This document shows, piece by piece, positions 1,043 to 45,243 of a DNA stretch of 64,000 bases. How positions within the stretch are numbered: position 1 is the stretch's first letter; the number at the start of each line of letters is the position of its first letter. This DNA comes from Dethiobacter alkaliphilus (GTDB lineage Bacteria; Bacillota; Dethiobacteria; DTU022; UBA8154). The notes under the pieces were generated by a model. The model saw only the letters and a program-made list of their open reading frames with translations. It was not told the origin of the DNA and searched no databases. Where the stretch lies: the NCBI GenBank assembly GCA_016841605.1, contig JAENYV010000002.1, positions 124,001 to 188,000 of the forward strand. Direction: 5' to 3'. Both the position numbers and the translations under genes were made by a program.

Positions 1043-1061
1043 CTCCAGGCTCCCGGGATCG

Positions 1062-1649: not shown

Positions 1650-1699
1650 CCTGCAGGCCTCCTTTGTTCTTTTATTTATTATTTCTAACTCCCGTGCAG

Positions 1700-3463: not shown

Positions 3464-3501
3464 TGTTATTCCCCTTTCCCAAATACTCATGTATGCTTAA
3501 C

Positions 3502-3544
3502 AAAAAAAATGTTTACTGCATTCATAGGGACGAAAGCAGTAAAC
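3502..3544 (-). terminator. Second intrinsic terminator in the iorA leader
   Basis: Nine-base-pair stem (GTTTACTGC at 3511-3519 pairing with GCAGTAAAC at 3536-3544), followed on the minus strand by a run of eight T at 3502-3509. It lies just downstream of the T-box terminator and about 40 nt before the iorA start, so a transcript that reads through the T-box must still pass it. Confidence 0.65.
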
Positions 3545-3562
3545 ACCCCGGCTTAAAAAGCC

Positions 3563-3885: not shown

Positions 3886-3891
3886 TATCAT

Positions 3892-3920
3892 ATTTTATAA
3901 TATATTTAGCTCTTACGCAA
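3892..3920 (-). promoter_or_regulatory. Sigma-A-type promoter of the T-box/iorAB operon
   Basis: TTGCGT (3915-3920) and TAAAAT (3892-3897) separated by 17 nt on the minus strand, placed so that transcription would start just before the T-box Stem I. It overlaps the short gap after the amidohydrolase gene, so iorAB is probably a separate transcription unit. Confidence 0.6.
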
Positions 3921-3946
3921 GAAAAATTTTTACTGCTAATTTCCCC

Positions 3947-4777
3947 TTAGAATATTTTCAGCAATTTAGCAGCATTACCCCCCAATATTTTTTCCTTCGC
4001 TTCCTTTGAAAGGGGTAGATGCCTTATTTCCTCAATGTTTTTTTCCAAATCAGGCAGTCCGGGCCAATCAGATCCAAAAAGAACTTTGCCGGATATTTTT
4101 TCAAGTTCCGGAAAGTAATCCATCAATTTTTTTGGAGGAAGCCCGGCTATTTCCATGTAAACATTTTCATGAAGACGGCTCAGGAAAAAGGCACGGTCAT
4201 ACCAAAAACCCCTCCCGCCATGCACAAGAACAATTGTTAGTTCAGGAAAATCGACCGCAACGTCGTCAAAATAGAGCGGATCCCCATATTTTAATCTGGT
4301 ACCTTTAAAAACAGATGATCCCGTATGGAACATAACAGGAATCTGCAGTTTTTCTGCCCTGGCATAAAGAGGATATAAGGTATTATCATTGGGATAAAAG
4401 TGCTGGTACGTGGGATACATCTTCAGGCCGCGGAAACCCATTTCAACCAGTCTAGATAATTCTGAACTCATATCCACAGTCAGAGACGGATTGATACTGG
4501 CAAAAGGAATTAAACTGGGTCGTCCGCTGCAAAAATTAAGAATATGTTCGTTGGAGCATATCCCTGTAACAGCCGGGGTCAACTCTGCTAAAACCACTCC
4601 GTAATCGATTCCGCATTGTTGTAAGTATTCACAAAATAGTCCGGGGTCTTGATACAGGGAAAGAAGTTTATTCCATTTATCCTCTCCATGAATACTTTTA
4701 ATCCATTCAATTATACTACTGTTGAATTGTTCATAGTAAACCGTATGAATATGAAAATCAATAACAGGAGTAAACAT
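3947..4777 (-). CDS. Amidohydrolase family 2 (TIM-barrel) metal-dependent hydrolase or decarboxylase
   Basis: 276-residue amidohydrolase_2-type protein. It shows the N-terminal metal motif DFHIH at residues 7-11, a mid-protein barrel-strand His (MFHTG), a second one (VLVHGG), and the C-terminal FGSDWPG with the catalytic Asp. Family members hydrolyse amides or lactones, or decarboxylate aromatic acids. The gene follows the SDR-thiolase-DUF35 genes on the same strand, after a 183-nt AT-rich gap with a probable terminator, so it may be separately transcribed. The context suggests a role in aromatic or cyclic-acid metabolism, but the substrate cannot be read from the sequence. Confidence 0.85.
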   Translation of the reverse strand: MFTPVIDFHIHTVYYEQFNSSIIEWIKSIHGEDKWNKLLSLYQDPGLFCEYLQQCGIDYGVVLAELTPAVTGICSNEHILNFCSGRPSLIPFASINPSLTVDMSSELSRLVEMGFRGLKMYPTYQHFYPNDNTLYPLYARAEKLQIPVMFHTGSSVFKGTRLKYGDPLYFDDVAVDFPELTIVLVHGGRGFWYDRAFFLSRLHENVYMEIAGLPPKKLMDYFPELEKISGKVLFGSDWPGLPDLEKNIEEIRHLPLSKEAKEKILGGNAAKLLKIF

Positions 4778-4874
4778 GAGCGAAAACTCCTTTTAAATAA
4801 ATAAGTAAACTATTTTTATTAGCACAATTATTTTCCTTATTACGAAAAAGCAAAAGAGTAATGATATTTGCCGG

Positions 4875-4902
4875 AAAAAAAAGGGGAAATTATATTTTTC
4901 CC
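4875..4902 (-). terminator. Intrinsic terminator after the DUF35 gene
   Basis: On the minus strand GGGAAA-loop-TTTCCC (883-902 of the 4 kb block, i.e. 4883-4902) is followed by CTTTTTTTT (4875-4882). It lies in the gap between the DUF35 gene and the amidohydrolase gene. Confidence 0.55.
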
Positions 4903-4960
4903 GCAATATGGTTTGATTCCGTTTTTGTTCCTAATTTATTTATTTATTTTTTTGTCTTTT

Positions 4961-5371
4961 TTAAGCAGGTAAAAATTCATAAGTCAGTTTATCTTCCGGA
5001 AGAGCGAGAGGAGTAACTTTGAGAGCCATTCCTACTTTTACACTGTCTTCAGGGAGATCTTTGCTCAAACGTCCGAAAACTTTAATACCGTCAAAATCCA
5101 CCAAAGCCAGAATATAAGGGACATCCCCTTCAAAGCCGGTAGGAGCGTAATTAACCTTAGTGAAACTAATCAGCGTACCCTGCCCTTTAATTTCAATCCA
5201 TTCAACATCCTTGCTCATGCACCAGGAGCAGTCCGCGCGAGGAGGGAAAAAGACACGCCCGCACAAGTTGCACTTTGTTCCCCTAATCTCTCCTTTTTCC
5301 AGGTAATCAATAAAGTCCGAGGCCCTGGTCTGAGCTGTAAAACTTACCACTCCAAATTTTTCAAATCCCAT
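4961..5371 (-). CDS. DUF35 / Zn-ribbon OB-fold acyl-CoA-associated protein
   Basis: 136 residues. A Zn ribbon with two CxxC pairs (CNLCGRVFFPPRADCSWC, from about residue 34) is followed by an OB-fold (GTLISFTKVNYAP and later ILALVDFDG). Such proteins form complexes with non-decarboxylating thiolases, for example the archaeal thiolase-DUF35 complexes and the BbsA/BbsB benzoylsuccinyl-CoA thiolase, where the small subunit helps bind CoA. The start lies 5 nt after the thiolase stop, so the two are translationally linked and surely partners. Confidence 0.9.
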   Translation of the reverse strand: MGFEKFGVVSFTAQTRASDFIDYLEKGEIRGTKCNLCGRVFFPPRADCSWCMSKDVEWIEIKGQGTLISFTKVNYAPTGFEGDVPYILALVDFDGIKVFGRLSKDLPEDSVKVGMALKVTPLALPEDKLTYEFLPA

Positions 5372-5376
5372 TATTT

Positions 5377-6531
5377 TTACCTCCCCAGTATGACCACATT
5401 GCCGTAAATACCAACCCCACCGATGTTGTGGACCAAACCGATTTCTGCTCCCGGAACCTGAATATCTCCGGCTTCATCCCTCAACTGCAGGACAATAGTC
5501 CGAACCTGGGACCCGCCGGTAGCGCCAATAGGATGCCCTTTAGACAATAACCCGCCGTCAACATTTACGGGAATTTTTCCACCGAGATAAGTTTCGCCAT
5601 TCTGGATTAATTCATTACCTTTACCCGGTTCGGCGAATCCAAGATTTTCATAAGCCATTAACTCGGCGATGGTGAAGCAATCATGAACCTCGGCCACATC
5701 AATATCTTGAGGAGATACACCCGCCATTTCATAAGCGGTCTTGGCTGCTTCCTTAGCAGCGTTCAACCCGGCCAGTGAATCCCGCCCTGTCATGGTCATC
5801 GGAGCCGATGCAGAACCTACGCCCATAACCCAGACAGGCTTCTTGCAAATTTCCTTGGCTTTATCGGCACTCGCCAGAATCATACAGGAGGATCCGTCAG
5901 CATTGGCGCAGCAGTCAAATTTCTTTAATGGGCTGGCAATAGCATCTGCATTTATAACCTGATCAAACTCTACTCCTTTACGAAAAACAGCCCTTTCATT
6001 TAATTGTCCATATTTGGCTGCTTTAACCCTGATTAACGCCAGATCTTTTTCACTGCTTCCATAAGTGTTGAAATGGGCACGCGCGTGCAGGGCGTAATAG
6101 GCAGGCATCATGGTTCCGAAAGGCGATTCCCACATAATATCCGCGCCGCGGCCCATTCGTTCTTGGGAATCAGCCGAAGTTATTTCCGACATTTTTTGAA
6201 AACCAAGGACAACAACAATATCATGTAATCCTGACTTGATCATGGAATAAGCAACTTTAAGTCCGCTAGTACTTGCTGAACAAACCGTTTCAATGGCAAA
6301 TGTTGGCTGAGGGTTCAGTCCCAGGTACTCGGCGATAAGTCCGGAAGGACTCCGTTGCTTATCGTATTCCGGCGCGGTGCAGATCATTGAAGCACCGACG
6401 TCTTCCGGTCCTATCCCGGCATCTTTCATTGCTTCACTGTAAGCATCAAACGCCAACTCCCTGATAGAACCTTGATAGCCTCTGACAAAATAGCTCTGCC
6501 CTACGCCAATGATAGCTACATCTTTAGGCAT
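5377..6531 (-). CDS. Thiolase-family acyl-CoA acetyltransferase (SCP2/SCPx type)
   Basis: 384-residue thiolase. The nucleophilic Cys sits in ETVCSASTSG (near residue 83). The usual pair of C-terminal motifs is present: a VHDCF segment, GHPIGATGG with the active-site His, and HNIGG in place of the second Cys motif, as in SCP2-type thiolases. It cleaves or forms 3-oxoacyl-CoA. It is coupled to the DUF35 gene (5-nt gap) and follows the SDR gene by 43 nt, giving a dehydrogenase-thiolase pair for the last two steps of a beta-oxidation-like sequence. The ATG has a GGGAGG site 7 nt upstream. Confidence 0.93.
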   Translation of the reverse strand: MPKDVAIIGVGQSYFVRGYQGSIRELAFDAYSEAMKDAGIGPEDVGASMICTAPEYDKQRSPSGLIAEYLGLNPQPTFAIETVCSASTSGLKVAYSMIKSGLHDIVVVLGFQKMSEITSADSQERMGRGADIMWESPFGTMMPAYYALHARAHFNTYGSSEKDLALIRVKAAKYGQLNERAVFRKGVEFDQVINADAIASPLKKFDCCANADGSSCMILASADKAKEICKKPVWVMGVGSASAPMTMTGRDSLAGLNAAKEAAKTAYEMAGVSPQDIDVAEVHDCFTIAELMAYENLGFAEPGKGNELIQNGETYLGGKIPVNVDGGLLSKGHPIGATGGSQVRTIVLQLRDEAGDIQVPGAEIGLVHNIGGVGIYGNVVILGR

Positions 6532-6574
6532 GGCTTAACCTCCCTGTCTATTAAAAAGATAACCTAACACTACA

Positions 6575-7321
6575 CTACATCATTACCATTCCGCCGTCGA
6601 TACAAAGAGTCTGCCCCGTAATAATGCTTGACTCATCGGACGCGAAAAAGATAACGGCCGGAGATACTTCTTCCGGTTGGGCAAAACGTCCCAGTGGTAT
6701 CCTCTCCAGATACTTCGCCATAAATTTCGGATCATGGGCGATTTTGGCCGTCATATCCGTATCAGCCAGGGGAACAATCGTGTTAACCCTGATGTTGTAA
6801 CGAGCCAGTTCTTTCGCAGCCGACTTGCTCAGGGCATATACACCGCCTTTGGCTGCCGTATAATTTGCTTGACCGATAGTCCCGACTATACCTGCCGCTG
6901 AGGTAACATTGATAATTGAACCGCTCTTTTGTTCCATCATGGGCTTTGCCACGGCCTGTATGCAGTAGAAAGTACCGGAAAGATTAATTTTAATAATCTG
7001 ATTCCAGTTTTCCTCGGTTGTATTCCACAACATCACTGGTTTACTTATTCCGGCATTGTTAAAAAGGACATCTATTCTTCCAAACTTGTCCAGGACGGCA
7101 TCTACCATTGCAAAAACTTGGTCCCTATCTCCGATATCAACTTGCCGGACAAGCACCTTACGTCCTAAGGCTTCAACATCTTTCACCAGTTGAGAATCAG
7201 CCTGAATGCTCCGGCTTACCAGAGCCAGGTCTGCTCCTTCTTTAGCTAAAGCCAGAGCAACTGTTTCTCCGATCCCTTTTCTGGCCCCTGTTACAAGGAT
7301 AACCTTATCTTTTAAACGCAT
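6575..7321 (-). CDS. Short-chain dehydrogenase/reductase (FabG-like)
   Basis: 248-residue classical SDR. The Rossmann glycine motif is TGARKGIG (near residue 12), followed by NNAG, the active-site Ser in VTSAAG, the YTAAKGG Tyr/Lys pair, and a C-terminal GGMVMM end. It oxidises a 3-hydroxyacyl-CoA or reduces a 3-oxoacyl thioester with NAD(P). I start it at the ATG at 7321, which has GGAGGTG 5 nt upstream; the open frame extends to 7360 without a better site. As first gene of an SDR-thiolase-DUF35 set, a catabolic 3-hydroxyacyl-CoA dehydrogenase role is more likely than fatty-acid synthesis. Confidence 0.9.
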   Translation of the reverse strand: MRLKDKVILVTGARKGIGETVALALAKEGADLALVSRSIQADSQLVKDVEALGRKVLVRQVDIGDRDQVFAMVDAVLDKFGRIDVLFNNAGISKPVMLWNTTEENWNQIIKINLSGTFYCIQAVAKPMMEQKSGSIINVTSAAGIVGTIGQANYTAAKGGVYALSKSAAKELARYNIRVNTIVPLADTDMTAKIAHDPKFMAKYLERIPLGRFAQPEEVSPAVIFFASDESSIITGQTLCIDGGMVMM

Positions 7322-7365
7322 TGTTTCACCTCCTTCCAAAACTGTTCTTACACTTCTCAAGTATC

Positions 7366-7399
7366 ATGTATATATTTCTACAATGTATATATTTCTACA
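7366..7399. repeat. Perfect tandem repeat of a 17-bp unit upstream of the SDR operon
   Basis: ATGTATATATTTCTACA occurs twice back to back (7366-7382 and 7383-7399), 45 nt upstream of the SDR start. The placement suggests an operator or an upstream promoter element; the protein that binds is unknown. Confidence 0.75.
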
Positions 7400-7752
7400 T
7401 TCATTCCTGTTTTCCTCTATGGATGACTCATTAAAGTTCGCGGACTATGAGCCACCGTTATAATTTGAAGATTTTTTTCCGTTGTCAAAAAACAATTTGA
7501 CAACAAGGTCTCGACCATTACTCTTTACCGATAAAGTATGGTAATTCTCTTTGTCGAAGTAAATAATCATAATTGAGGATATGGAGAACAACTATGTCCC
7601 CCGGTTCCAGGCTTAAATAAATTTGCGCCGGAGTACCCCAAAATATCTTTTGCACTCAATAGTCTGGAAAGGGTGAGATTAGCCCTGTGGATTAAACACC
7701 AAAACCGTAAGGATATTGACGGTAGAGAAAAAATTATTATATAATAAATATG

Positions 7753-7789
7753 AGAAATTCAGAATATTTTTAAGAAATTCAGAATATTT
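7753..7789. repeat. Direct repeats with 20-bp period upstream of the response-regulator gene
   Basis: AGAAATTCAGAATATTT occurs at 7753-7769 and 7773-7789. The 20-bp period puts both copies on one face of the helix, and each copy has GAAAT...ATTTC symmetry. This fits a pair of sites for a dimeric regulator, possibly the NarL-type protein encoded about 80 bp downstream. Confidence 0.7.
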
Positions 7790-7869
7790 CAAGGTAATAT
7801 AAAAAGCTGAAAGGCATATTTGCAAATACCACTGTTTAGCTTCTAAACCTGAGCAAGGAGGGTTTCAAA

Positions 7870-8583
7870 TTGACGATAAAGCTTATGATTGTGGACGACC
7901 ATCCCATGGTCAGAGAAGGATTATCGACTATGCTGAAAGCATATGAAGAAATAAATATTACCGGAAGCTGCAGCAACAGTGAAGATGCAATAAAAACAGC
8001 CCTCACCGAAGAACCTGATATTATTTTAATGGACATTAAAATGGAAGGAACAAACGGGATTGAAACAACACGCTTAATCCTTGAGCAAAAGCCCGCCATT
8101 AAAATTATTATTCTCACAGTATTTGAAGATACGGAATCAATTCGCCTGGCTTTACAATCGGGAGCTGTTGGGTATATATTAAAACATGTTTCCGGAGAAA
8201 AACTGCTGGAGACCATCAGGAGGGTTTACCAGGGTGAAACTGTCATTGATCCTTTAGTTTTACAACGCATGGTTCATGACTATATCCTATTAAGTAAAAA
8301 GGTTACGGACAACCGGGAAGAGCAGCAAGATGAAGGGATACAAAAAAAAGAGATCGAGTTAACCCCAAGAGAACAGGAAATCCTTTTTCAGTTGATTAAA
8401 GGCCTAACCAATAAAGAAATTTCCGCGGCAACCAACCTGGCGGTAGATACGGTAAAAACACATTTGCGAAATATTTTTCGCAAACTGGGTGTTAAAAATA
8501 GAGCACAGGCTATTTCCCAGGCTATTAAAATTTATAAAAACCCTCAAAATACGCTTTTTCTTTTTAGTAAGCTTACTAAGTGA
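7870..8583 (+). CDS. NarL/FixJ-family response regulator
   Basis: 237 residues: an N-terminal receiver domain (acidic DD at residues 9-10, phospho-acceptor Asp in LMDIKM near residue 56, Thr in ILTVF, Lys in LKHVSG) joined by a charged linker to a C-terminal LuxR-type HTH (LTPREQEILFQLIKGLTNKEIS, split here at the domain start, then VKTHLRNIFRKLGVKNR). It starts at TTG 7870 with AAGGAGGG 6 nt upstream; no ATG fits. No histidine kinase is adjacent, so it is an orphan in this window. The repeats just upstream suggest autoregulation. Confidence 0.92.
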   Translation: MTIKLMIVDDHPMVREGLSTMLKAYEEINITGSCSNSEDAIKTALTEEPDIILMDIKMEGTNGIETTRLILEQKPAIKIIILTVFEDTESIRLALQSGAVGYILKHVSGEKLLETIRRVYQGETVIDPLVLQRMVHDYILLSKKVTDNREEQQDEGIQKKEIELTPREQEILFQLIKGLTNKEISAATNLAVDTVKTHLRNIFRKLGVKNRAQAISQAIKIYKNPQNTLFLFSKLTK

Positions 8584-8596
8584 GCATAACAGTTTT

Positions 8597-8655
8597 GCGA
8601 AAAAGAAAAACGTTTACAGGGTACTCCTACTCCGGATCCGAGTACCCACGCAAAC
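8597..8655 (-). terminator. Intrinsic terminator of the rpsB-tsf operon
   Basis: Inverted repeat GGGTACTC (8619-8626) / GAGTACCC (8640-8647), extended by an outer CGTTT/AAACG pairing, followed on the minus strand by TTTTTCTTTTT. It lies between the convergent tsf and response-regulator genes and may act in both directions. Confidence 0.7.
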
Positions 8656-8677
8656 GCAGTTATTATAATGATATTTA

Positions 8678-9295
8678 TTATTCGGTTTCCGGATCGGTTC
8701 CCAGGCTTTCGCCCATCTCAAAACGAGCAAAACGACGGATAAGAATATTTTCCCCAATTTTAGCAATCTTCTCCGTTAGGAGTTGTTGAATTGAAAGGTC
8801 CGGATCTTTTACAAATGCCTGCTCTATTAAGCAGTTCTCCTGGTAAAACTTTTCTATCCGGCCTGCTACAATCTTCTCCACAATTTTTTCCGGTTTGCCC
8901 TCATTTAAAGCTTGCTTTCTTAAAATCTCTTTTTCCTTTTCCAGGTCTTCCTGTGGAACATCATCCTTGTTAAGATATGCCGGATTTGTTGCCGCCACCT
9001 GCAAACAGATATCCTTAACAAAAGCGCGAAATTCTTCGTTTCTGGCTACAAAATCCGTCTCGCAATTCACTTCGACAAGAACCCCTACCTTTCCGCCCAT
9101 GTGAATGTAGGAATCAACAATACCCTGACTTGCTGTTCTGCCCGCTCTTTTTGCCGCTTTAGCCAGACCTTTTTCCCGGAGCAGATTAATAGCCTTCTCT
9201 TTATCCCCGTCAACCTCTTGTAAAGCCTTTTTGCATTCCATCATTCCGGCACCTGTTATATCACGAAGTTCTTTAACCATTCCAGCGGTAATCAT
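8678..9295 (-). CDS. tsf: Translation elongation factor Ts
   Basis: EF-Ts, the nucleotide exchange factor of EF-Tu. The N-terminus contains the UBA-like domain and the conserved [19 protein letters not shown] signature, then TDFVARN near residue 80, which contacts EF-Tu. At 205 residues it is the short form common in Clostridia, Thermus and others, without the extended dimerisation and coiled-coil parts of the E. coli protein. It follows rpsB by 49 nt, the usual pairing. Confidence 0.97.
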
Positions 9296-9344
9296 TTTTT
9301 AAAGCACTTCCTTTACATTATTAAATTATTATTATTAAATTACG

Positions 9345-10148
9345 TTAACTTGCCTGACTTTCGTCTTTATCGTTTTTTCCGTCATCGCTCAATTCTTCCT
9401 GTTCCTCAGCAGTTTCTTCTTCTTGACCGGATAACTCTTTCTGTTCTTCTTCTTCGGCCATCTGCTTACCCTGTTTTCCTTCCAGGACCGCCTCAGCCAT
9501 TTTTGAAGTAATCAAACGAACGGCTCTTATTGCATCATCGTTTCCAGGAATTATATAATCAATTTCATCAGGATCACAATTTGTGTCAACAATAGCAACA
9601 ATAGGAATCTCAAGCTTACGAGCTTCGGCCACCGCAATTTTTTCTTTCCGCGGATCGACAATAAACACTGCCGACGGAACATCTTTCATATGTCGTATTC
9701 CGCCTAAAAACTTCAATAATTTTTCTTTTTCATGGTTAAGCTTAATAACTTCTTTCTTGGGCAGTACCTCAAAACGTCCTTCCTCTTCCATTTTTTCCAA
9801 TTCAATTAAACGGTCGATTCGCTTGCGAATTGTATTAAAATTTGTCAACATTCCACCCAGCCAGCGCTGATTGACAAACGGCATCTCACAGCGAAGGGCT
9901 TCTTCCTGAATTGATTCCTGCGCTTGTTTTTTTGTACCTACAAAAAGTACTGTTTCCCCCCGCAAAGCCAGATCCTTGACAAAATTATAAGCGACATCCA
10001 TCAGACGGACGGTTTTCTGGAGATCAATAATATAAATACCGTTCCGCTCCGTAAAAATAAAAGGTCGCATTTTAGGGTTCCAGCGCCTCGTTTGGTGACC
10101 AAAATGAACTCCTGATTCCAATAATTGTTTCATCGACACAACAGCCAT
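9345..10148 (-). CDS. rpsB: 30S ribosomal protein S2
   Basis: S2 with the conserved [22 protein letters not shown] start, the [11 protein letters not shown] block, and the FIVDPRKE and DTNCDP motifs. 267 residues; the last ~40 form a very acidic tail rich in Glu, Asp and Gln beyond the usual end. The start has a GAGGAGG site. It has its own promoter and a ~100-nt leader with a strong hairpin, so it may be autoregulated. Confidence 0.97.
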
Positions 10149-11217: not shown

Positions 11218-12672
11218 CTACAGTATATATCTACTTAAATCTTTATTTTTAACAATTTCTTTTAATTTATTCTTCACATACTCTCTATTAATGACAATTT
11301 TTTGACCTTTTAATTCCGGTGCATAAAAAGAAACTTCTTCAAGGATTTTTTCCAAGACCGTATGCAAACGTCTCGCACCTATATTTTCCATATTATCGTT
11401 TAACAAACCGGATATTTCTGCAATTTCTTCAATTCCCTCCTCATCGAATTCTATCTTCACCCCCTCCGTGGCCAAGAGAGCAGTGTATTGTTTAATTAAA
11501 GCATTTTCTGTATCTGTTAAAATCTTTTTAAAATCTTCGGCAGACAAATTCTGCAGTTCTACCCGAATAGGAAATCTCCCCTGAAGTTCGGGAATAAGAT
11601 CCGACGGTTTAGAAAAATGAAAAGCACCTGCCGCTATAAAAAGCATATAATCGGTTTTTACAGGACCATACTTCGTCATAACGGTAGAACCCTCGACAAT
11701 AGGAAGAATATCCCTCTGAACCCCTTCTCTGGAAACGTCAGGTCCACTCTTTGAGTTTTCACTTCCGGCAACTTTATCAATTTCATCAAGAAAAACAATA
11801 CCTGACTGTTCTGCCCTATCGATAGCTTCACTAATTACTTCATCCATATTAATAAGCTTCTCCACATCTTCCTGTACAAGAATTTTGCGGGCTTGTTTTA
11901 CCGGTAGTTTTTTTCTCTTTTTTTTCCGAGTGAGAAGATTTCCGAATAAATCCTGCATATTTATCCCAATTTCTTCCCCGCCTAACCCTGAAAATAAATC
12001 CATCATGGGAAAATTGGAGGGGAGGCGATCCTCTACTTCAACTTCAACAATCGTATTCTCTAACTCTCCATCTTTTAATTTTTCTCTCATTAATCTTCTT
12101 TCTTCTTCTCGCGATCGCTTTGACAAATCATCCGATCCTTCATTCCAATTCGTTTCAGTTTGATTTTGGCGATCCCCGGAAGTTGATTGGAAGATAAGAT
12201 CAAAGGGATTGGCTATGGATTTTTTCACTTTTACAGCAGGAACCAGTAAATCCAAAAGCCTTTCCTCGGCAATTTCGAGAGCTTTTTTTTCTACGGTCCG
12301 CGTCTTTTCTTCTTTAACAATCCTTACGGAAGATTCAACAAGCTCTCTAATAATAGAATCCACATCACGACCCACATAACCTACTTCTGTAAATTTGGTC
12401 GCTTCTACCTTCACAAAGGGAGAGTTAACCAGCCTGGCCAGCCTTCGGGCGATTTCTGTTTTGCCGACACCCGTAGGCCCAATCATAATAATGTTTTTCG
12501 GGATAATTTCATTCTTTATTTTTTCCGTGAGGATTCTGCGGCGATAGCGGTTTCTTAAAGCGACAGCAACACTTTTTTTGGCATCCTGCTGTCCAATAAT
12601 GTATTTATCGAGCTCTTCCACTATTTTAATTGGGGTTAATTCTTCTTCCAGGTGTAGCATAAAATATGCCAA
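11218..12672 (-). CDS. hslU: ATP-dependent protease ATPase subunit HslU (ClpY/CodX)
   Basis: AAA+ unfoldase of the HslUV protease, about 484 residues. Walker A is [13 protein letters not shown], Walker B is IVFLDEIDK, and the sensor and C-terminal regions ([24 protein letters not shown]) are present. The central I-domain is longer than average and charged, with an RKKKRKK stretch. Start is uncertain: TTG 12672 has AGGAGG only 3 nt away, the ATG at 12660 has it 15 nt away; both give a normal N-terminus before [17 protein letters not shown]. Confidence 0.95.
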
Positions 12673-12741
12673 AAACCTCCTAAAAAAAATTTTTTTTAAC
12701 CTTACCGAAAGGTCTTTTCACTAAACTCTAGTCTTTACTAT

Positions 12742-13272
12742 TTAAATTTCTTCAATACTAATGTTTTCATTCGTATAAACACAAATTTCCGCAGCGATTA
12801 ATAAAGAGCGTGAGGCAATTTCTGCAGGAGAGAGTTCCGTATTTCTTAGCAGGGCCCTTGCAGCAGCCAGAGCGAAGGCTCCACCGGAACCAATGGCCGC
12901 AATATTGTCATCGGGTTCAATAACCTCTCCTGTTCCCGATAAAACTAATAAGGCATCTGCCGAGGCAACAATCAGCAGCGCTTCCAATCGCCTTAAATAA
13001 CGATCTGCTCTCCATTCTTTGGCAAGTTCTACCGCTGCACGACGTAAATTACCGTGAGAACTCTCCAGCTGTTTTTCAAACTTATCAAAGAGAGTAAAGG
13101 CATCAGCGACTGAACCGGCAAATCCGGCCAAAATTTTATCATGGTACAGCTTTCTTACTTTTCTGGCCTGGTGTTTCATAATAATGTTTCCCGAAAACGT
13201 AACCTGGCCGTCTCCTGCAATCGCTACATTATTGTCTTTTTTTACGGCTAAAATTGTTGTAGCATTAAACAT
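12742..13272 (-). CDS. hslV: ATP-dependent protease peptidase subunit HslV (ClpQ/CodW)
   Basis: Proteasome-beta-like peptidase forming the core of HslUV; 176 residues. The GDGQVTFG-type motif and [15 protein letters not shown] are present. The ATG at 13272 has GAGGT 7 nt upstream; the open frame to 13317 has no site. The encoded start is MFNATTIL, so a four-residue propeptide must be removed to expose the catalytic Thr, unlike the E. coli form (MTTI) and the Ser-started B. subtilis form. It sits upstream of hslU in the same operon. Confidence 0.95.
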
Positions 13273-13328
13273 TGGCAATACCTCGCAATATTTCCAACAT
13301 ATAAAAACTTTCGACAATTTTATATGTT

Positions 13329-14225
13329 TTATGCTCGTGGATGTGTATTTAAATAGGTCCTTTTTAATTCATCCTTAGTAATATGTGTGTATATTTGGGT
13401 AGTTGAGATGGAAACATGCCCTAAAAGGTCCTGTACTGTTCTGAGATCAGCTCCGGCATTTAACATATGGCTGGCAAAAGAATGGCGCAAAACATGAGGG
13501 CTTATGTGGGATCCGGAATTAATTTTTAGGCTGTATTTCGACATCATACGACGGACACTTCTATCGGATAAACGCTGTCCGAACCTGTTCAAAAAAAGCG
13601 CAGGTTCCCGCTCTCCCGATTGACAATTCGCCTCCAACACAGGACGTCCGCTCCTTAAATAAACGGCTACTGCCTGCCTGGCATACTTCCCGATAGGAAC
13701 AATTCGTTCTTTAGCCCCTTTACCCATTACCTTAAGGTAACCATCATCAAGATCTACATCAGCCAAATTTAAACCGGTCATTTCACTAACCCTGATGCCG
13801 GAACCGTATAAAATTTCTAAAATGGCCTTATCCCGCTCGCCAAGAACAGAGCCTTTTTCAGGTGCTTCTAAAAGTTCCAGAACTTCATCAGGATAGAGAA
13901 ATACAGGTAATTTTTTCTTCCTTTTCGGTGTAGAAACTATTTCCCACGAACTATCCTGAAGTTTGCCTTCTCTTTTCAAATATCGCAAAAAAGTTCTTAT
14001 TGCGGAAATCTTTCGGGCAACAGTACTCCTTGCATAACGTTGTTCTTTTAAAAGAGCCAGGAAACGCCGTATAATAAGATAACTTACGCTTTGATATGAT
14101 AGCCCCTGCTGATCAAGAAAACGCAAAAACTGCGAAACGTCCTTTTCATAGCATTGAACAGTCAAAGCAGAAGCATTTTTTTCGATATTCATAAATAGCT
14201 TAAATTTTTCGATGTAATTATCCAT
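13329..14225 (-). CDS. xerC: Tyrosine recombinase XerC
   Basis: 298-residue site-specific recombinase for chromosome-dimer resolution (XerC/CodV type). The SAM-like N-terminal domain is followed by the catalytic domain: Arg in GSGIRVSEM, Lys in [20 protein letters not shown] with His/Arg, LLGHVS and the nucleophilic Tyr in TTQIYTH. The start is chosen as the ATG at 14225 (MDNYIEKF); another in-frame ATG lies at 14246, and the frame extends to 14387 overlapping trmFO. The ribosome site is weak, which fits translational coupling. The gene order next to hslV and topA is the standard Firmicute one. Confidence 0.94.
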
Positions 14226-37325: not shown

Positions 37326-37799
37326 TTAATCCCTGCCGTCTTCTTCACCCTGTTTGTTTTCAAAATTCTTTTCAACTTCAAACAGCTCATCCATATTAAT
37401 TCTATTGCCGAAAATATCTTGTATTTTTTGCCTTGCTTTTATTTTTACATCTTTATCGATATGAATAGCAACAGAAGAAAGAGCAATTGCTAATGCTCCG
37501 AGGTCGTCTGCATAACCTCCAACAGGAACAAAATCAGGAATTGCATCGAAAGGTAAAATGAAGTAGCCTAAGGCTCCAACAATTACCGTTTTTGCCCATG
37601 GAGGGACTGAAGGTTTTTGCATCGTATAATAGAGCAACAGAGTAGCATATATAACTTTACCTCCAATATTTGTAGCTACTTTTTTTATCTTGTTCCAGAA
37701 GTTTTTTTCAGAATATTCTTTGGAATGCTTAACCAAATAATCAGAAGTAATTTTTATCATCCTTTCTTCTTTAATTTCGGATAATAAATACTTCCACAT
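37326..37799 (-). CDS. YkvA-like DUF1232 protein
   Basis: 157 residues. The DUF1232 core is seen in YYTMQKPSVPPWAKTVIVGALGYFILPFDAIPDFVPVGGYADDLGAL (split here into its landmarks: a hydrophobic segment and the ILPFDAIPDFVPV signature). Probably membrane-associated. Start uncertain: ATG 37799, or ATG 37760 (MIKITSDYLV), which has GAAAGG immediately upstream. Function unknown. Confidence 0.85.
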   Translation of the reverse strand: MWKYLLSEIKEERMIKITSDYLVKHSKEYSEKNFWNKIKKVATNIGGKVIYATLLLYYTMQKPSVPPWAKTVIVGALGYFILPFDAIPDFVPVGGYADDLGALAIALSSVAIHIDKDVKIKARQKIQDIFGNRINMDELFEVEKNFENKQGEEDGRD

Positions 37800-37888: not shown

Positions 37889-37915
37889 TAAAGCCCGGGA
37901 TAAACCCGGGCTTTA
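37889..37915 (-). terminator. Intrinsic terminator after the BamA-like gene
   Basis: Stem AAAGCCCGGG (37891-37900) / CCCGGGCTTT (37906-37915), continuing into ATATTTATG on the minus strand. T-tract is interrupted, but stem is strong and placement correct. Confidence 0.7.
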
Positions 37916-37941: not shown

Positions 37942-39090
37942 TTACTTTGGCTTCGGCATAACCGCTTCAAACATTTCGGCATCATAAGGATGACCTTTGG
38001 CCAACATCTGCCTTAGCTTAATTATATCGGCATCCCTGGTACCCGTTAGCTTGGCGGTATTAAATCCAGTCATGCCCATATCAAATTCTCCATACATTTG
38101 CGCGTTGGCGGCCCACCACCAGATAATCTCGGCTTTGGTTCTCTCATAGGCCATTTTCTTCTCGGCTCTTAACATGTTCAGTGAAACTCCAACCTGCTGG
38201 GGATACAGATTGGCGAATGTCCAAACGACTTCATCGACTGCCTGATCCAGCATCGAAGTATCCCTTTCCAGTGACTTAGCCAAAGCTTTTGCCTCTTTTA
38301 AATCGTTACCGGTTTTATATTCACCGTATACTATTTGGCCATCGTCAACCCACTTATCCGTAACGACTTCCGGGTTTCTCACAAATTTACCGTCTTGCTT
38401 GAGCACGGGTTCAACTCTGTGGATATAATTTTTGCGCAGCATCTTGTAAGCACTCATCTGCTCTGCACAACCAACGGTATTCCACACCGCATCTTCGATA
38501 GTCATAGAAACCGACTTAAACTGAACTGCTCCGCCCATCGCCGTGGAACCATGCTTTGGTCCTACCTGACCAAAACTGGCGGTATCGGCCGCGATGGTCA
38601 AGTCGCAGCAACCGCTGATTTCTTCGCCGCCGCCGATACTCATACCCTGCACCCGGCGGATAAAAGGCTTGGACGAGGTCCAAACTGCATTAAAGGCATC
38701 CCAGTATACCTGCATATATTCCTGGCAATCCATCGGCCTGCCGATCATGTATTCCGAATACTCCGGAACGTTACCGCCCGTGCAGAAAAACCTGTCGCCT
38801 GCACCGGTAAGAACAACGGCAACCACGCTCGGGTCATGAGAGGCTTTATTAAAAGCGCAGGCAGCTCCGGCTAACATATCAAGGTTGTAAGAGTTCCCCT
38901 GCTTTTCATTATCCAGAATTACATAAGCTACATATAGTCCCTCTACGGGTTCTTTTGTTTTAGGATTAATTAAAGGTCTTTTTTCAAGGACAGTACGCGG
39001 GGGTGCTGCTAGTTGTAAAAGATCCTCCCTGGCGATCGAGAAATCCATCCTGCTTTCTTTCGGTGCTCTAGGTATCCAATCTAATGCCAT
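37942..39090 (-). CDS. BamA-like 6-oxocyclohex-1-ene-1-carbonyl-CoA hydrolase homologue (crotonase fold)
   Basis: 382 residues, longer than ordinary enoyl-CoA hydratases (about 260) and equal to BamA/Oah length. BamA-type features: GNSYNLDML, FFCTGGNVPEYSEY, GMSIGGGEEISGCCD, FGQVGPKHGS, KQDGKFVRNPEVVTD, GEYKTGNDLKEA and the C-terminal FNTAKLTGTRDAD...LRQMLAKGHPYD...MPKPK. BamA opens the alicyclic ring formed from benzoyl-CoA in anaerobic degraders. It is a close but not certain match, and no benzoyl-CoA reductase lies in the window. It has its own terminator and a long upstream gap, so it is monocistronic. GAAGGAGG lies 12 nt before the ATG. Confidence 0.8.
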   Translation of the reverse strand: MALDWIPRAPKESRMDFSIAREDLLQLAAPPRTVLEKRPLINPKTKEPVEGLYVAYVILDNEKQGNSYNLDMLAGAACAFNKASHDPSVVAVVLTGAGDRFFCTGGNVPEYSEYMIGRPMDCQEYMQVYWDAFNAVWTSSKPFIRRVQGMSIGGGEEISGCCDLTIAADTASFGQVGPKHGSTAMGGAVQFKSVSMTIEDAVWNTVGCAEQMSAYKMLRKNYIHRVEPVLKQDGKFVRNPEVVTDKWVDDGQIVYGEYKTGNDLKEAKALAKSLERDTSMLDQAVDEVVWTFANLYPQQVGVSLNMLRAEKKMAYERTKAEIIWWWAANAQMYGEFDMGMTGFNTAKLTGTRDADIIKLRQMLAKGHPYDAEMFEAVMPKPK

Positions 39091-39955
39091 ATCTTTTTAT
39101 ATCCTCCTTCAAATAATAATTTTGTTTGTTTCTTTAAACATACTGGAAATACTGAATTTGCCTCAGTCTTTAAACCACCTCCCTTTTTCTATTTTCATAC
39201 ATACTCAATTAATTAAAGAGGTTCAAGAAAACTAATCGCTCTTTCATCATTAAATAATACTCTAGAGCCAATATTTTTTTCTTCTTGTTACCTCTTTTGT
39301 CCTAAAACACTTAATAGCCGGTGGAGACGATTCTGGGTGCACTATGGGTGCACCTGCCGCCAAAATATAACACTAGTGTGTTAATACTTCTAAATGCGAA
39401 CGCCACACAATATGTATGATATCTTTTGATACATAGAATAAAATTTTATTATATAAAATTATTAAATAAAACTTTATTCTTAGACACTCTACAGAATAGC
39501 ACAGTAACAATATGTAGTCAAGTTTTTTTTGAGCCAAGCCATTTGCGTTGTACTCATTTTTTCGTTTAGCAAAAAAAAAATCACTCCAAATTTGCTGTTT
39601 TCATAAACGTCTTTTCCCAAACTAGTAAGCCTAATACCCACCACATCGATATTGACATTTTATAGCTAACCCGTACCGTTTAAGTATAGCCCGTACTCAT
39701 TAAATCAACTATTTCAAATACCTCAGCAAAATAAATCCTGATTTTATCAGAGCATCATGTCCTGAAAACTCGGGTTTTTGTTCCTTAATCCATATTAAGC
39801 ATCCCCTCCAAAAAGTAAAATTATTACCAACCTACCGTTTATTTTATTTGTGACAAAATTAATGGCAGCGTCACTGATCTGAATTAATAGAAGTCGTATT
39901 AGATCTGCACTGGAAGGAAACCCTCTTGTCCGGAAAATTTAGATTGTTTTCGCCA
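39091..39955. other. Long AT-rich gap before the Kai operon's kinase gene end
   Basis: 865 bp without a supported gene. Contents: a candidate promoter for the BamA-like gene near 39190-39230 (TTGAAC, 17 nt, TATGTA on the minus strand), direct repeat GGGTGCAC-TAT-GGGTGCAC near 39335-39355, a short dyad TAACAC-TAGT-GTGTTA near 39367-39382, and a 15-bp imperfect inverted repeat GAATAAAATTTTATT / AATAAAACTTTATTC near 39436-39480. No insertion-sequence end was recognised. Confidence 0.45.
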
Positions 39956-42724
39956 TTAGAATAAGATATTCTTTATCGTCTCAGATAACTTTTCCAGGGT
40001 GAAGGGCTTCTTTACCGCCGCCTTGAAACCGTAATCGCCAAAGCTCACCAAAATCGGATCGTTGGAGTAGCCGCTGGCGACGATGGCCTTCACCCCGGGA
40101 TCCAGCTTTAGCATTTCCTTAATGGTCTGCTTGCCGCCCATGCCGCCCGGGATCGTCAGGTCCAGGATCACAAGGTTGAAGGGTTGGTTTTGCTCCAGGG
40201 CACGGGTGAATAGTTCTACGGCTTGTCCGCCGTTCCGGGATAAAGTAACGTCATAGCCGAGGGTGGTTAAGGTTTCGCCTGTAGCGGTAAGCAGGTCCTC
40301 CTCATCATCCATGATCAATATTTTACCTTTACCCTGAAAAACGGTATCCTTTACGGAGGAATTCGTTGCAGCCGGGGAAATAGCGGGGAGAAAGATATAA
40401 AAGCTGGTCCCCACACCCATTTCAGACTCTACTTTTAAGTGGCCATCGTGCTTTTTAATGATGGAATAGGAGGTGGCCAGGCCCAGGCCGCGTCCTTTGT
40501 CTTTCGTGGTAAAGAAGGGGTCGAAAATTTTGGGCAGGTATTTAGCAGGGATCCCTGTGCCTCCGTCCCTGATTGTAATTTTTACATAAGGGCCTTGCGG
40601 CAGCGGCAAAGAGGAATCTGCCGGGGAAGTGTTTTCCGCCCGGACTTGCAGGGCTCCCCCTTCGGGCATGGCCTGTACGGCATTGATGGCAATGTTATTC
40701 AAGACCTGGCTGAGCTGGCCCGCGTCAGCATACACCATATGCAGTCCAGCGTCGATGATAATGTCGGGGTGGACCTGGGATCCGCTTAAGGCAAATTTGA
40801 TATCATCCATAATTAACTGCTTGATGGATATTTTTTCTTTAAACGGTGCTCCCCCCCGGGCAAAGGTGAAAAGTTGGTTGGAGAGGTCCTTGGCACGCAA
40901 CGTTGCCTTCTCCATATTCGCCAGTTTTTCCTCTATCTTGGCTTTATCATCTTTAAATAGCTTAGCCAGACTGATATTGGCCAGAAAAGTTGCCAGGTAG
41001 TTGTTGAAATCATGGGCGATGCCGCCGGCGAGGAGGCCGATAGCTTCTAGTTTATCTGCTTTAAGCATTTCTTCTTCCATTTTTTTAAATTCGGTAATAT
41101 CGGTCAATAAAGCAAGAATGGCGGAACTGCCTCCCCACTCTATTTTGGCCGAGTTCTCCTGGATGTGTCTGGTGTTACCGTCACAGGCTATAAGCCTGTA
41201 AATGAAAGGATTTTCAGGTTTACCTTTGATCAATCTTTTTTTAGGACGTTCCAGGATAAGATACCTGTCGTCGGGGTGGATAAACTCAAGAAACGGCAGC
41301 GAGGTTATTCTATCCGCGGAACAGGAGAATACTTGTTCAGCCATGGGATTGGCAAATTTTATGATGCCGTCTTTAATTACAATAATGGACTCATTGGCGT
41401 TTTCCACAAGGGAGCGATAGAGCTCTTCGCTTTCCTGTAAGGCTCTCTCTGCCTGCTTGCGTTCTTTTATTTCCTGCTGCAATATCTCATTAGTACGAGT
41501 AAGTTGGGCTGTACGTTCAGTGACCTTATGCTCAAGCTGATCATGTGCTTTTTGCAAGGCTTCTTCGGCAAAATTACGTTCAATCAAATCGGCGGCCTGC
41601 CGTGCCAAAACGTCGAGGCTGCGTATTTCGCCTTCCGTCAGTTCATGGGGCTCGCGCCAGTGCGTGGAGATCATACCCAGCACGGCGCCTGAGCGGGAAA
41701 GCAGGGGTGTTGTCTGCACCGCGCGGATACCGGCTTGCCGGTATTGCTCGAGAACATCACTGCCGGCTATGTAATCGCATTGCAGCACGTCCGCGTAGAC
41801 AACTCTCCGGCGTGTCTTTAAGGCCAGGCCGCAAGAGCTCCGCGAATGCGGGGTTATCCACTCCCAACATCCGGTATCGAACTCGCCGAAGCCGTAATCC
41901 CTGAGCAGATAGAGCTCACCTTCTGTCCCACGCTCGGGATGAAACCGTTGAATGGTGGCGAAATCGGAACGCATGATCTTAAGCATCGTAGCGAGGAGCT
42001 GGTCGTAAAGCGCTTCGACATTGTCGGCCCGGATCAGCTGCGTGCTGAGTTCCTGCAGTAATTCGGCAGTCTCCAGTTCCCTGGCCAGCTGCTGCTCACT
42101 TTTGCGCAGCGCCTCCTCAATCCGCTTTTGTTCTTCGATTAATCGCAACAGGGTGCGGCGCGAGCGCTCAGATGCCTCCATCTTGGCACGTGCTATTCTT
42201 TCAGCATGAACTATCTCCTCCATGCATTTATGCTCGGTCAGGTCGGTTACCACCACACAGATATTTTCAGGCACACCGTCCAGTTGCAAATTTATCAGGG
42301 AGAGCTGGGCCGGTACCAGGCCACCGTCTCCATCAATAAGGTTTAGTCCTGCCAGGCGCCGCCGGCCGTGCTCTTTATCCAGTAATGTTTGAAGCTTCTC
42401 CCGGTCGGCAGGACTGATCCAATCAAGGAGCGACGAACCGAGCACTTTTTCCAGCGGCTTTTGGAGCATTTGGGCAAAGCGCCGGTTGGCATAGAGAATG
42501 ATGCTTTCCCTGGTCATGGTGAGCGCACCTTCACTCATGTTCTCGATCAGTAGCCGGAAGGGCTGATCCGCGCCCTTGAGGGTGAATATCTGTTCACCTT
42601 GCTCGGTAGAGATGACCAGCGCGTCTACCCCGCCGCTGTGAATGGCGCGCAGTGTCCCTTCAGCTTCCTCCAGCCTTGCACGCAGACTAATAATTTCGTG
42701 CTCTAATTGCATTTTTTTGACCAT
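39956..42724 (-). CDS. Kai-operon hybrid sensor histidine kinase (PAS-GAF-PAS-HisKA-HATPase-REC)
   Basis: 922 residues, no transmembrane segment seen, so cytoplasmic. Order: N-terminal coiled coil (1-30), PAS (about 50-165), GAF (about 220-385), linker coiled coil, PAS (about 430-545), HisKA with His571 in GGIAHDFNN, N-box NNIAINAVQ, G-boxes DGGTGIP (720-726) and GRGLGLA (744-750), and a C-terminal receiver with Asp806/807, phospho-acceptor Asp855 and Lys906. It is 54 nt downstream of the second kaiB in the kaiC-kaiB-kaiB operon, so it is the likely output or input partner. Visibly GC-richer than genes around the operon. Confidence 0.92.
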   Translation of the reverse strand: MVKKMQLEHEIISLRARLEEAEGTLRAIHSGGVDALVISTEQGEQIFTLKGADQPFRLLIENMSEGALTMTRESIILYANRRFAQMLQKPLEKVLGSSLLDWISPADREKLQTLLDKEHGRRRLAGLNLIDGDGGLVPAQLSLINLQLDGVPENICVVVTDLTEHKCMEEIVHAERIARAKMEASERSRRTLLRLIEEQKRIEEALRKSEQQLARELETAELLQELSTQLIRADNVEALYDQLLATMLKIMRSDFATIQRFHPERGTEGELYLLRDYGFGEFDTGCWEWITPHSRSSCGLALKTRRRVVYADVLQCDYIAGSDVLEQYRQAGIRAVQTTPLLSRSGAVLGMISTHWREPHELTEGEIRSLDVLARQAADLIERNFAEEALQKAHDQLEHKVTERTAQLTRTNEILQQEIKERKQAERALQESEELYRSLVENANESIIVIKDGIIKFANPMAEQVFSCSADRITSLPFLEFIHPDDRYLILERPKKRLIKGKPENPFIYRLIACDGNTRHIQENSAKIEWGGSSAILALLTDITEFKKMEEEMLKADKLEAIGLLAGGIAHDFNNYLATFLANISLAKLFKDDKAKIEEKLANMEKATLRAKDLSNQLFTFARGGAPFKEKISIKQLIMDDIKFALSGSQVHPDIIIDAGLHMVYADAGQLSQVLNNIAINAVQAMPEGGALQVRAENTSPADSSLPLPQGPYVKITIRDGGTGIPAKYLPKIFDPFFTTKDKGRGLGLATSYSIIKKHDGHLKVESEMGVGTSFYIFLPAISPAATNSSVKDTVFQGKGKILIMDDEEDLLTATGETLTTLGYDVTLSRNGGQAVELFTRALEQNQPFNLVILDLTIPGGMGGKQTIKEMLKLDPGVKAIVASGYSNDPILVSFGDYGFKAAVKKPFTLEKLSETIKNILF

Positions 42725-42778
42725 ACTTAGTCTTCCTTCATTTTAAATTAAGAAAAAGAACGTAAGTAATAAGGATTG

Positions 42779-43144
42779 CTACTTTTTTCGCAAACCCATC
42801 CCCACCAGCACCCGTTCTGTGTCCGACATATCACCGATAATACGGCGTAACGGCAGGGGCAGTTTCTTGATTAGCGTAGGTGCGGCAATGATCTGTTCTT
42901 TTTTAGCCAGGCCCGGCTGCTGGTAGATGTCAATCACTTCAAGTTCGTAACGGCCCTGTAGGCGTTCTTCACAAATTTTTTTTATGTTGGCCACGGAACG
43001 GGCAGAAGCAGGCGTAGTGCCTGTTACGAACAGCCGCAGTACATAAATGGTCTGCAACGGTTCAGCCAGGGCACGCTCAAATGCTTTGGTACTGTCACTA
43101 GTCTTCTTCTGTCTGGTCATCCCTGTACACCCTCCCTTATTCAT
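42779..43144 (-). CDS. kaiB: KaiB-family protein, second copy
   Basis: 121 residues. A ~30-residue basic and polar N-terminal extension precedes the KaiB core [21 protein letters not shown], with [39 protein letters not shown] and RVLVGMGL. KaiB switches between a tetramer and a thioredoxin-like monomer that binds KaiC. It overlaps the first kaiB by 8 nt. Compared with that copy, the core is similar but with clear differences, so this is an established paralogue. The start ATG has GGAGG 5 nt upstream, inside the end of the first kaiB. Confidence 0.93.
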
Positions 43145-43481
43145 TTTCGCCTCCGGAGCAGAGCGGTTTCAGGTCCAATCCCACCAGCACCCGCTCTGTA
43201 TTCGAGAGGTCGCCGATGATCTTGCGCAGCGGTGGCGGCAGTTTACGCACCAGGGTAGGGATGGCCAGAATCTGATCGCCCCTTGCCAGTTGCGGGTTCT
43301 CCAACAAATCAATCACTTCAATGGTATATCTGCCCTGCAAATGTTCTTCACAGATGGCCTTGAGATTGGCAAAAGCAGCAAGAGATTTAGGGGTTTGCCC
43401 GGCTACGTAGAGACGCAGGTTCCACATTCTTTCCAATTCTTCCGGCATTATCTCAGCCGTCTTACTGTTTGAGTCAGTCAT
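43137..43481 (-). CDS. kaiB: KaiB-family protein, first copy
   Basis: 114 residues. KaiB core: [68 protein letters not shown], all characteristic of the thioredoxin-like fold. About 17 extra N-terminal residues and a short tail (CSGGENE). The start overlaps the kaiC stop by 4 nt (ATGA), the tightest coupling, so it is surely the partner of this KaiC. Confidence 0.95.
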
Positions 43482-45187
43482 TTACATACCCCCTGGTTGG
43501 TTTCATCGGCATGACGTTTTTTCGCCATCTCCACACGGTCCTGCAGCAGGCGCGTCTCTTGCTGTTGTTCCTGGGCGATAGTCTGTATAAGCTCTGTCTC
43601 CTCGTCTGAAAAAGCTGCACGCAGGGCGACAATCTGTGCTTCCAGCGCCTGCCGCTTGCGCTCCAGTTCGCGCCGGCGGCGCTCCATCTCCTGCTGCCTC
43701 ACCAGTTTGGCAGCTTGCTCCCGCGCCTCCTGTTCCAGGCGCGCCGAGCCGGTCAGCACGCCGCCGGGCCCCACATACACATCCACCATATCAAGGCCTT
43801 GGTCGGTGATTAAAAATTCGCGAATCTGGTTGGAATGGGCCATACCCCGCGACTTGAGGATATACATGCCCCGGTTGCGCTCACCACTGTTATCAATATC
43901 GCGCAACAGCAACCAGGTATCAATGAGGGAGGAGATGGCGGTATCGGTGTGCTCAAGCGGGCTGCCGCCGGCAGTCAGGCTTGTGAACATTACAGTGGCG
44001 CCTTTTTCCTTGAGGAAATCTACCAGACGTATCAGCATGGACTTGACTTCGAATTCGTTGTCTATGGTGACAAAGGCATTGATGGGGTCAACAATGACGA
44101 TCTCCGGTTGAAACTTGTTGATGAGCTTGTACATCTTTGCCAGGTGCATCTCCAGCCCGTACATAACGGGACGGGTAGCCTCAAAACGAAAAAGGTCCTT
44201 TTCCACCCAGGGCTGCAAGTCAATACCGATTGAGCGCATGTTACGTATGACCTGCCCGGGCGATTCCTCGAAAGCGAAATAAAGCACCCGCTCCCCCCGC
44301 TTACACGCTGCCTCGGCAAAATGTGCCGCCATGCTCGATTTGCCGGTACCGGTAGTGCCGGAGACGAGCAAGGTGCTGCCGCGGTAATATCCCCCGCATC
44401 CCAGCATTGTATCCAGGCGAGGGATACCGCTGGAGACACGTTCTGCGGAAGCCGCATAATACAGACCCAGCGAAGTGATGGGCATTACTACGATACCCTG
44501 CTCGTCAATGAGGAACGGGTACTCGTTGGTGCCGTGTATGGAGCCGCGATACTTGACGACGCGCAGGCGCCGCGTGGAAACCTGTTCAATGACACGGTGA
44601 TCAAGAAGGATCACGCAGTCTGAAACGTACTCTTCCAGGCCGTGACGCGTAAGCGTACCCTCGCCGCGCTCACCGGTGATCACAGCGGTGACGCCCTTGT
44701 CCTTGAGCCAGCGGAAGAGGCGCCGCAGTTCGGCGCGCAGGATGTGCGGGTTGGGCAAGCCGGAAAAAAGCGTCTCCACCGTATCCAGCACCACACGTTT
44801 AGCGCCGATGGAATCAATAGCATGTCCCAGGCGGATAAATAAGCCTTCCAGGTTGTACTCGCCCGTTTCCTGGATCTCCTCGCGGGCTATGTGCACAAAA
44901 TCCACCAGCAGCTTCTTGTTTGCAATCAGGTCCGGCAAGTCAAAGCCGAGGGAGGCCACGTTTTGGATCAGTTCGTCCTCGGTCTCTTCAAAGGCCACGA
45001 AAACGCCCGGCTCATCGAATAAGGTAGCGCCGCGTACCAGAAATTCCATGGCCAGCAGCGTTTTACCGCTGCCTGCTGTGCCGCATAACAATGTTGGACG
45101 GCCCTGCGGCAAGCCGCCGTTTAGAACTCCATCCAGGCCCTGAATACCGGTGGACGCTTTAGGGAATAGCATCAATAGTTCTGACAC
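43478..45187 (-). CDS. kaiC: KaiC-family circadian clock ATPase/kinase with C-terminal coiled coil
   Basis: 569 residues from the GTG at 45187 (GGAG 8 nt upstream; the frame goes on to a TTG at 45226 without a site). CI domain: Walker A GTAGSGKT (36-43), catalytic Glu67-Glu68, Walker B near 132-135. CII domain: Walker A GTTGTGKS (277-284), Glu307-Glu308, Walker B IVIVD (363-367), and the phosphosite dyad Ser419-Ser420 (AISSLIDT) where cyanobacterial KaiC has Ser431-Thr432. The tail beyond CII (about 484-562) is a long Glu/Arg/Gln coiled coil not found in the cyanobacterial protein. Heads the operon kaiC-kaiB-kaiB-kinase; no kaiA. Confidence 0.95.
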
Positions 45188-45243
45188 ATTTTTATCTCCT
45201 CGTATAATAGATTTTGTAACACCCAATCAATCAACCTCTCATC

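Follow-up and report, generated by a model that had tools for sequence, protein, structure and literature searches.

When the gene for a ring-opening enzyme of anaerobic aromatic degradation stands by itself, does it serve that pathway or a different substrate? This question is raised by a 64,000-nucleotide stretch of the Dethiobacter alkaliphilus genome (the window; positions 124001 to 188000 of contig C8 in genome G000), in which the original prediction had noticed a BamA-like crotonase of 382 residues at 37942 to 39090. Here, the gene was found to encode a divergent member of the Oah/BamA family, referred to below as variant Oah. Judged from sequence comparison, variant Oah very probably spread horizontally and displaced canonical Oah, and it would carry out the same ring-opening step.

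Family assignment and the variant clade

As predicted, the interval holds one gene: its minus strand is filled by a single open reading frame (ORF) of 382 codons (ATG at 39090 and stop codon at 37942), and its plus strand has 12 stops. The protein matched the Oah/BamA model TIGR03200 end to end (residues 31 to 378 on model positions 16 to 360 of 360), with 363.9 bits and an E value of 8.8e-109, and the long C-terminal region was included in this full-length homology. The curated cut-off of 464.45 bits was not reached, and under the curated rule the protein is therefore not filed as TIGR03200. Its identity was 42 to 44% to the canonical Oah proteins first aligned and about 41 to 50% overall. 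Thus, the claimed likeness to BamA holds along the full length of the protein, but not at the identity or score of canonical members.

Other crotonases were far behind. BadI (TIGR03210), the 2-ketocyclohexanecarboxyl-coenzyme A (CoA) hydrolase, is likewise a ring opener of the crotonase family, but as the next best model it reached only 80.6 bits over residues 54 to 187 (cut-off, 467.6), and generic crotonase models gave at most 80 bits. MenB (1,4-dihydroxy-2-naphthoyl-CoA synthase) was the best sequence match among solved structures (E value of 4e-18), but it matched only approximately residues 78 to 192, catalyzes a different reaction, and has a shorter chain of 285 to 289 residues without the long C-terminal region. 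The AlphaFold model of the window protein was confident (mean predicted local distance difference test score of 89.6 and predicted template modeling score of 0.89), and its best solved-structure matches in Foldseek were crotonases (E value of 1.6e-14), with MenB among these folds. When 86 Oah-type rows and five enoyl-CoA hydratases of the window genome were combined in one tree, the Oah group was split from the hydratases with a support of 100, and the placement originally proposed as a check put the protein inside or as sister to the Oah/BamA clade. Two whole-genome searches found it to be the sole Oah-family protein of its genome, the next matches being ordinary enoyl-CoA hydratases. A scan of viral contigs gave one pattern match and no relative, and a plasmid search gave no match at 1e-30.

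The contigs of 84,980 species were scanned with a seven-sequence alignment, and the best 80 of 576 confirmed relatives were kept. Since these are the closest to the window protein, canonical diversity was sampled near the query; the named Oah proteins of Thauera and Azoarcus and the methyl-type hydrolase (CCH23022.1, used as outgroup in PMC3794298) lie outside the sample. Among these 80, 12 loci (L074 to L085) encoded proteins 67 to 87% identical to the window protein (77 to 87% for relatives of the same family), and the next reached at most 49%. They belong to Bacillota metagenome-assembled genomes (one of Syntrophomonadaceae), two Dehalococcoidia, two "Deltaproteobacteria" (on the chromosome-size contigs CP070704.1 and CP070660.1), one Desulfobacterales, and two further bacteria; L075 and L076 are apparently the genus mates G001 and G002. 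TIGR03200 scores were bimodal, with 343 to 395 bits for the variant loci (12 of 12 among the contig loci) and 504 to 584 bits for the canonical loci scored (5 of 5 contig loci over the cut-off at 504.7 to 579.8 and a further 9 of 9 at 520 to 569); the remaining loci called canonical in the trees were labeled by an identity below 50%, not by model score. In the 86-row tree, the 13 variant rows formed one clade with a Shimodaira-Hasegawa-like approximate likelihood ratio of 100 and a long stem of 1.11 changes per column. The clade was placed among canonical rows, beside three Dehalococcoidales (92), a position made unsure by the long branch; in a 40-row tree without an outgroup, the variant/canonical split was supported at 100/100. 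The 12 genomes with variant loci each contained a single Oah-family gene, always below the cut-off.

Variant Oah resembles canonical Oah in length, full-length alignment, partner genes (Had and Dch), and operon position, but differs in its score, its separate clade, two extra residues in the N-terminal region, and 20 fixed differences. In total, 66 positions showed no variation among the variant rows and kept the same residue in 95% or more of the 73 canonical rows, including H180 in the GPxHGS motif and E157, which we take to correspond to the catalytic glutamate of crotonases (Glu144 of enoyl-CoA hydratase). Several fixed differences lie beside conserved motifs and touch the surroundings of GGN, GGxE, and GPxHGS (variant/canonical: V108/T, G153/A, E156/Q adjoining E157, V176/A, and A184/P). 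Because the motifs are conserved and the confident model has crotonase structural matches, the same reaction is the economical reading, and the changed motif neighbors could tune the rate or tolerance of the enzyme.

Pathway linkage, operon position, and discordant trees

Aromatic pathway genes occupy window positions 1 to 7360 and the adjoining 6.5 kb to the left, on the same strand as the variant gene. The left flank (L045, positions 108000 to 124100 of C8) carries on its minus strand, in transcription order, the AMP-ligase continuing from the window, a PaaK-type ligase, a BzdP-like ATPase, BzdQ, a Dch-like hydratase, and Had. BzdQ (430.9 bits; cut-off, 380.2) and Had (481.3 bits; cut-off, 338.65) passed their models, and the best model of the BzdP-like protein was the general activase TIGR00241. 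The short-chain dehydrogenase/reductase (SDR) gene lies approximately 31 kb from the variant gene (C8 position 161942 onward), bzdQ approximately 41 kb, and Had approximately 43 kb. The original statement that no reductase, dehydratase, or ligase is near therefore applies to the immediate neighborhood but not to the window and its left flank, where bzdQ, Dch-like, and PaaK-like genes are found. The suggested dispersed anaerobic aromatic pathway is thus supported: the genome does contain other benzoyl-CoA genes, BzdQ and Had over their cut-offs, accompanied by Dch-like, BzdP-like, and PaaK-like proteins and IorAB.

A possible trace of rearrangement lies between bzdQ and the Dch gene. Immediately behind bzdQ, the spacer (L045 positions 11953 to 12009) contains the apparent last 19 codons of a ferredoxin gene (58% identity; E value of 3e-6 against three short spacers and 1e-4 against L045 plus the window), and an intact ferredoxin gene follows bzdQ in G002, G458, and G469. 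Going by this resemblance, the remnant likely marks a deletion, and the corresponding interval of G458 is the one occupied by Oah.

The operons of relatives show the same slot with a different enzyme. Among 17 loci chosen for showing neighbors, the order SDR-Had-variant Oah-Dch occurs in L081 and L085 and the order SDR-Had-canonical Oah-Dch in six (L097, L099, L100, L112, L125, and L146); the other nine share the order only in part or are arranged differently. The six canonical loci are 73 to 78% (SDR), 72 to 79% (Had), and 53 to 69% (Dch) identical to L081, but only 46 to 52% in Oah. Had-Oah is found in L080 and Dch-Had-(cold-shock protein)-Oah in L077. Within the window's family, G458 has PaaK-bzdP-bzdQ-ferredoxin-oxidoreductase-Oah-Dch-Had with a canonical Oah; its identity to the window genome is 83% for PaaK, 78% for BzdQ, 63% for BzdP, 75% for Dch, and 82% for Had, but 45% for Oah. 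G469, of the same family, has IorA-IorB-variant Oah-bzdQ-ferredoxin. In G464, G465, and G466, canonical Oah follows the OB-fold protein in a cluster otherwise like window 1 to 7360, and in G465 and G466 the amidohydrolase comes next.

The two types also exclude each other. Of the 97 genomes of the window's class, 24 were Oah positive, 16 with canonical Oah over the cut-off (G463 with two pieces on two contigs) and 8 with the variant, and none had both. In the window's own family, the variant occurs in genera g1, g270, g273, and g275 and canonical Oah in g271 and g274. Had was over its cut-off in 10 of the 12 variant genomes. When fixed bit thresholds were applied to the 80 contig loci, many of which have short flanks, Had turned up in the available flank at 6 of 12 variant loci and 36 of 68 others. 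Of 398 genomes sampled from the phylum, eight had a Had over its cut-off. An Oah-family protein was detected at 1e-60 in seven of them, the exception being G114, whose genome is 78% complete. G212 has a canonical Oah, but its Had stays below the cut-off.

The tree of Had disagrees with that of Oah. After omission of the duplicate row L169 (L077 and L166 being the same protein), Had of variant-Oah genomes was scattered over no fewer than four positions in the tree, and in every case its neighbors were Had proteins from relatives with canonical Oah: L083 and L084 with L121 and L123, L081 and L085 with L112, L080 with other Chloroflexota, and Bacillota with other Bacillota. A single clade for Had of variant-Oah genomes was rejected in the approximately unbiased (AU) test (12 rows versus 38; p-AU of 9e-84), and so was a grouping of Bacillota variant with Bacillota canonical Oah in the 40-row tree (p-AU of 4.5e-146); any long-branch bias of the model is shared by both tests.

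These results are consistent with a divergent Oah clade that would have spread horizontally into several unrelated bacterial lineages and displaced canonical Oah there. As the displacement would have hit lineages already possessing Had and Dch, the other pathway enzymes would have been retained. In the window genome, the variant gene would have ended up approximately 43 kb from the bzdPQ-Dch-Had cluster, with its product presumably opening the ring in the closing stage of the anaerobic degradation of aromatic compounds. A long stem could also arise if Oah had descended vertically within Bacillota and changed fast, with no displacement. However, Bacillota variants group with those of Dehalococcoidia and "Deltaproteobacteria," the AU test rejects the grouping that vertical descent needs, and canonical and variant forms alternate among genera within one family; this alternative is refuted as far as trees go and is very unlikely.

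Several observations weigh against displacement by a functional equivalent: the sub-cut-off TIGR03200 score, the 20 fixed differences, the Dch-like protein of L045 at 169.3 bits (cut-off, 292.5), the lack of a Had hit in two of the 12 variant genomes searched (G403 and G406), and the lack of a model-passing BzdO in the Bacillota variant genomes searched, the best match in the window genome, on contig C26, reaching 206.4 to 206.9 bits (cut-off, 448.6). The enzyme might instead be an Oah-related hydrolase for another cyclic CoA substrate, such as 6-oxocyclohexene-carbonyl-CoA bearing a methyl or hydroxy group; 4-methylbenzoate degraders have a separate hydrolase of this kind. The fixed differences adjoining the three motifs and the long stem would fit this, but the variant is the sole Oah of its genomes, and the adjoining Had enzymes hardly differ from Had of canonical-Oah relatives. 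Because the variant occupies canonical operon positions in relatives, the different substrate offered in the original prediction found no positive support, and we consider it unlikely. A decayed or generic enoyl-CoA hydratase without an aromatic role is suggested by the solitary position and separate terminator in the window genome, but the gene is intact, highly identical to family relatives with conserved motifs, its counterparts in relatives are linked to Had/Dch or bzdQ, and generic models score poorly; this explanation is extremely improbable.

Candidate reductases and local surroundings

The BzdQ and BzdP-like proteins point to class I (BzdPQ-type) dearomatization. BzdQ was over its cut-off in 8 of 13 genomes searched and BzdO only in three "Deltaproteobacteria"/Desulfobacterales genomes. 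Five Bacillota genomes with BzdQ over the cut-off have bzdPQ without a model-passing BzdO (L045 positions 12014 to 13721, L250, L253, and L283), and four of these five have a HadBC-like pair in the same cluster or genome, one just a fragment. Three pairs in the window genome could supply the catalytic subunits: the BzdNO-like pair of C26 and the two HadBC-like pairs of C13. Alignment of six pairs showed three cysteines per subunit common to all. The C13 pairs were rejected as BzdNO, since they scored best, though far below the cut-off, on HadBC models. The bzdPQ cluster, or one parallel to it, also places a D-2-hydroxyacid dehydrogenase next to the HadBC-like pair (G398 and relatives), which would point instead to an aryl-lactyl-CoA dehydratase feeding benzoyl-CoA via a thiolase. 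It is doubtful that the window's family has a rewired class I pathway, in which a second-type ring-opening hydrolase with altered motif surroundings would be combined with a BzdPQ-type ATPase driving a HadBC-like (2-hydroxyacyl-CoA dehydratase-type) pair instead of BzdNO. Regarding class II, PF01314 (aldehyde ferredoxin oxidoreductase family) proteins were present in 13 of 13 genomes searched, and the five scanned matched only the general aldehyde ferredoxin oxidoreductase model, leaving these proteins as at most candidates for BamB.

In the window genome, C26 carries a second BzdNOPQ-like operon (L048 positions 5573 to 9687), all below the cut-off, with AMP-ligase and TRAP-transporter-like genes nearby. 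C13 carries two paralogous cassettes (L046 and L047; approximately 134 to 142 kb and 176 to 183 kb) of D-2-hydroxyacid dehydrogenase-like, AMP-ligase, IorA, IorB, and HadBC-like pair genes.

The immediate neighbors of the variant gene are unrelated to the aromatic pathway, and the gene is locally solitary with its own terminator, as first described. Since a terminator scan found 5 hairpins versus 2.9 in shuffles, the position and stem length of the hairpin carry weight, not the number of hairpins. Beyond the sensor kinase lie KaiB, KaiB, and KaiC, and on the opposite side UPF0047, Rrf2, and prismane proteins. The KaiC and two KaiB genes adjoin the PAS/GAF hybrid sensor kinase (39956 to 45226 for the whole group), all on the minus strand, in a noncyanobacterial host. 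The variant gene is also solitary in G471. Its location shifts among close relatives (L053, L052, L074, and L077), where the neighbors, named from sequence reading, are UvrD-like helicase and PilZ-like, leuS-like, rpsB-tsf-like, or Dch-Had genes.

Features of the window discussed in the text
Feature	Position	Strand	Basis or remark
AMP-dependent acyl-CoA ligase, 5' part, continuing left into L045	1-1042	minus	sequence reading
IorB-like subunit	1062-1811	minus	matched from residue 55; 237.6 bits (cut-off, 237)
IorA, indolepyruvate:ferredoxin oxidoreductase alpha	1700-3490	minus	680.5 bits (cut-off, 650.9)
Amidohydrolase	3947-4777	minus	PF04909
ChsH2-type zinc-ribbon/OB-fold thiolase partner	4961-5371	minus	PF12172, PF01796
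Thiolase-domain (SCP2-type) protein	5377-6531	minus	domain assignment
SDR	6575-7360	minus	sequence comparison; in same cluster in relatives
DUF1232 gene	37326-37799		adjoins variant oah
Intrinsic-terminator-like hairpin, 11-bp stem, 7 G-C pairs	37889-37915	minus	3' of stop codon
Variant Oah-type hydrolase gene, 382 aa	37942-39090	minus	ORF, TIGR03200 match, trees
Shine-Dalgarno-like AAGGAGGA	39102-39109	minus	read directly in sequence; 11 nt before ATG; strong
PAS/GAF sensor kinase (hybrid, histidine kinase)	39956-42724	minus	neighbor of variant oah

Consequences for marker surveys

Anaerobic aromatic degradation is usually surveyed with Oah/BamA as the marker, on the view that it is highly conserved (PMC3794298 and PMC5742626). 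The BamA primers SP9F and ASP1R, taken from the methods section of PMC3794298, have 7 of 22 and 6 of 18 mismatches, respectively, in the window gene, with two within the last five 3' bases of each. The best sites in the 13 variant genes had 3 to 9 and 3 to 7 mismatches, and those in the 68 other loci had 0 to 8 and 0 to 5 (medians of 2 and 2). Several variant genes have their best site at a nonhomologous position, and these counts are therefore lower bounds of the true mismatches. Variant Oah would probably escape detection with both the published bamA primers and the TIGR03200 cut-off, and marker surveys would thus undercount these degraders. No paper listed in searches of an open-access library described such an Oah clade in its title or the opening lines of its abstract.

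The variant clade holds the pathway slot of Oah in Bacillota, Dehalococcoidia, and "Deltaproteobacteria." In addition, the natural swap of Oah would provide paired enzymes for finding the determinants of Oah specificity.
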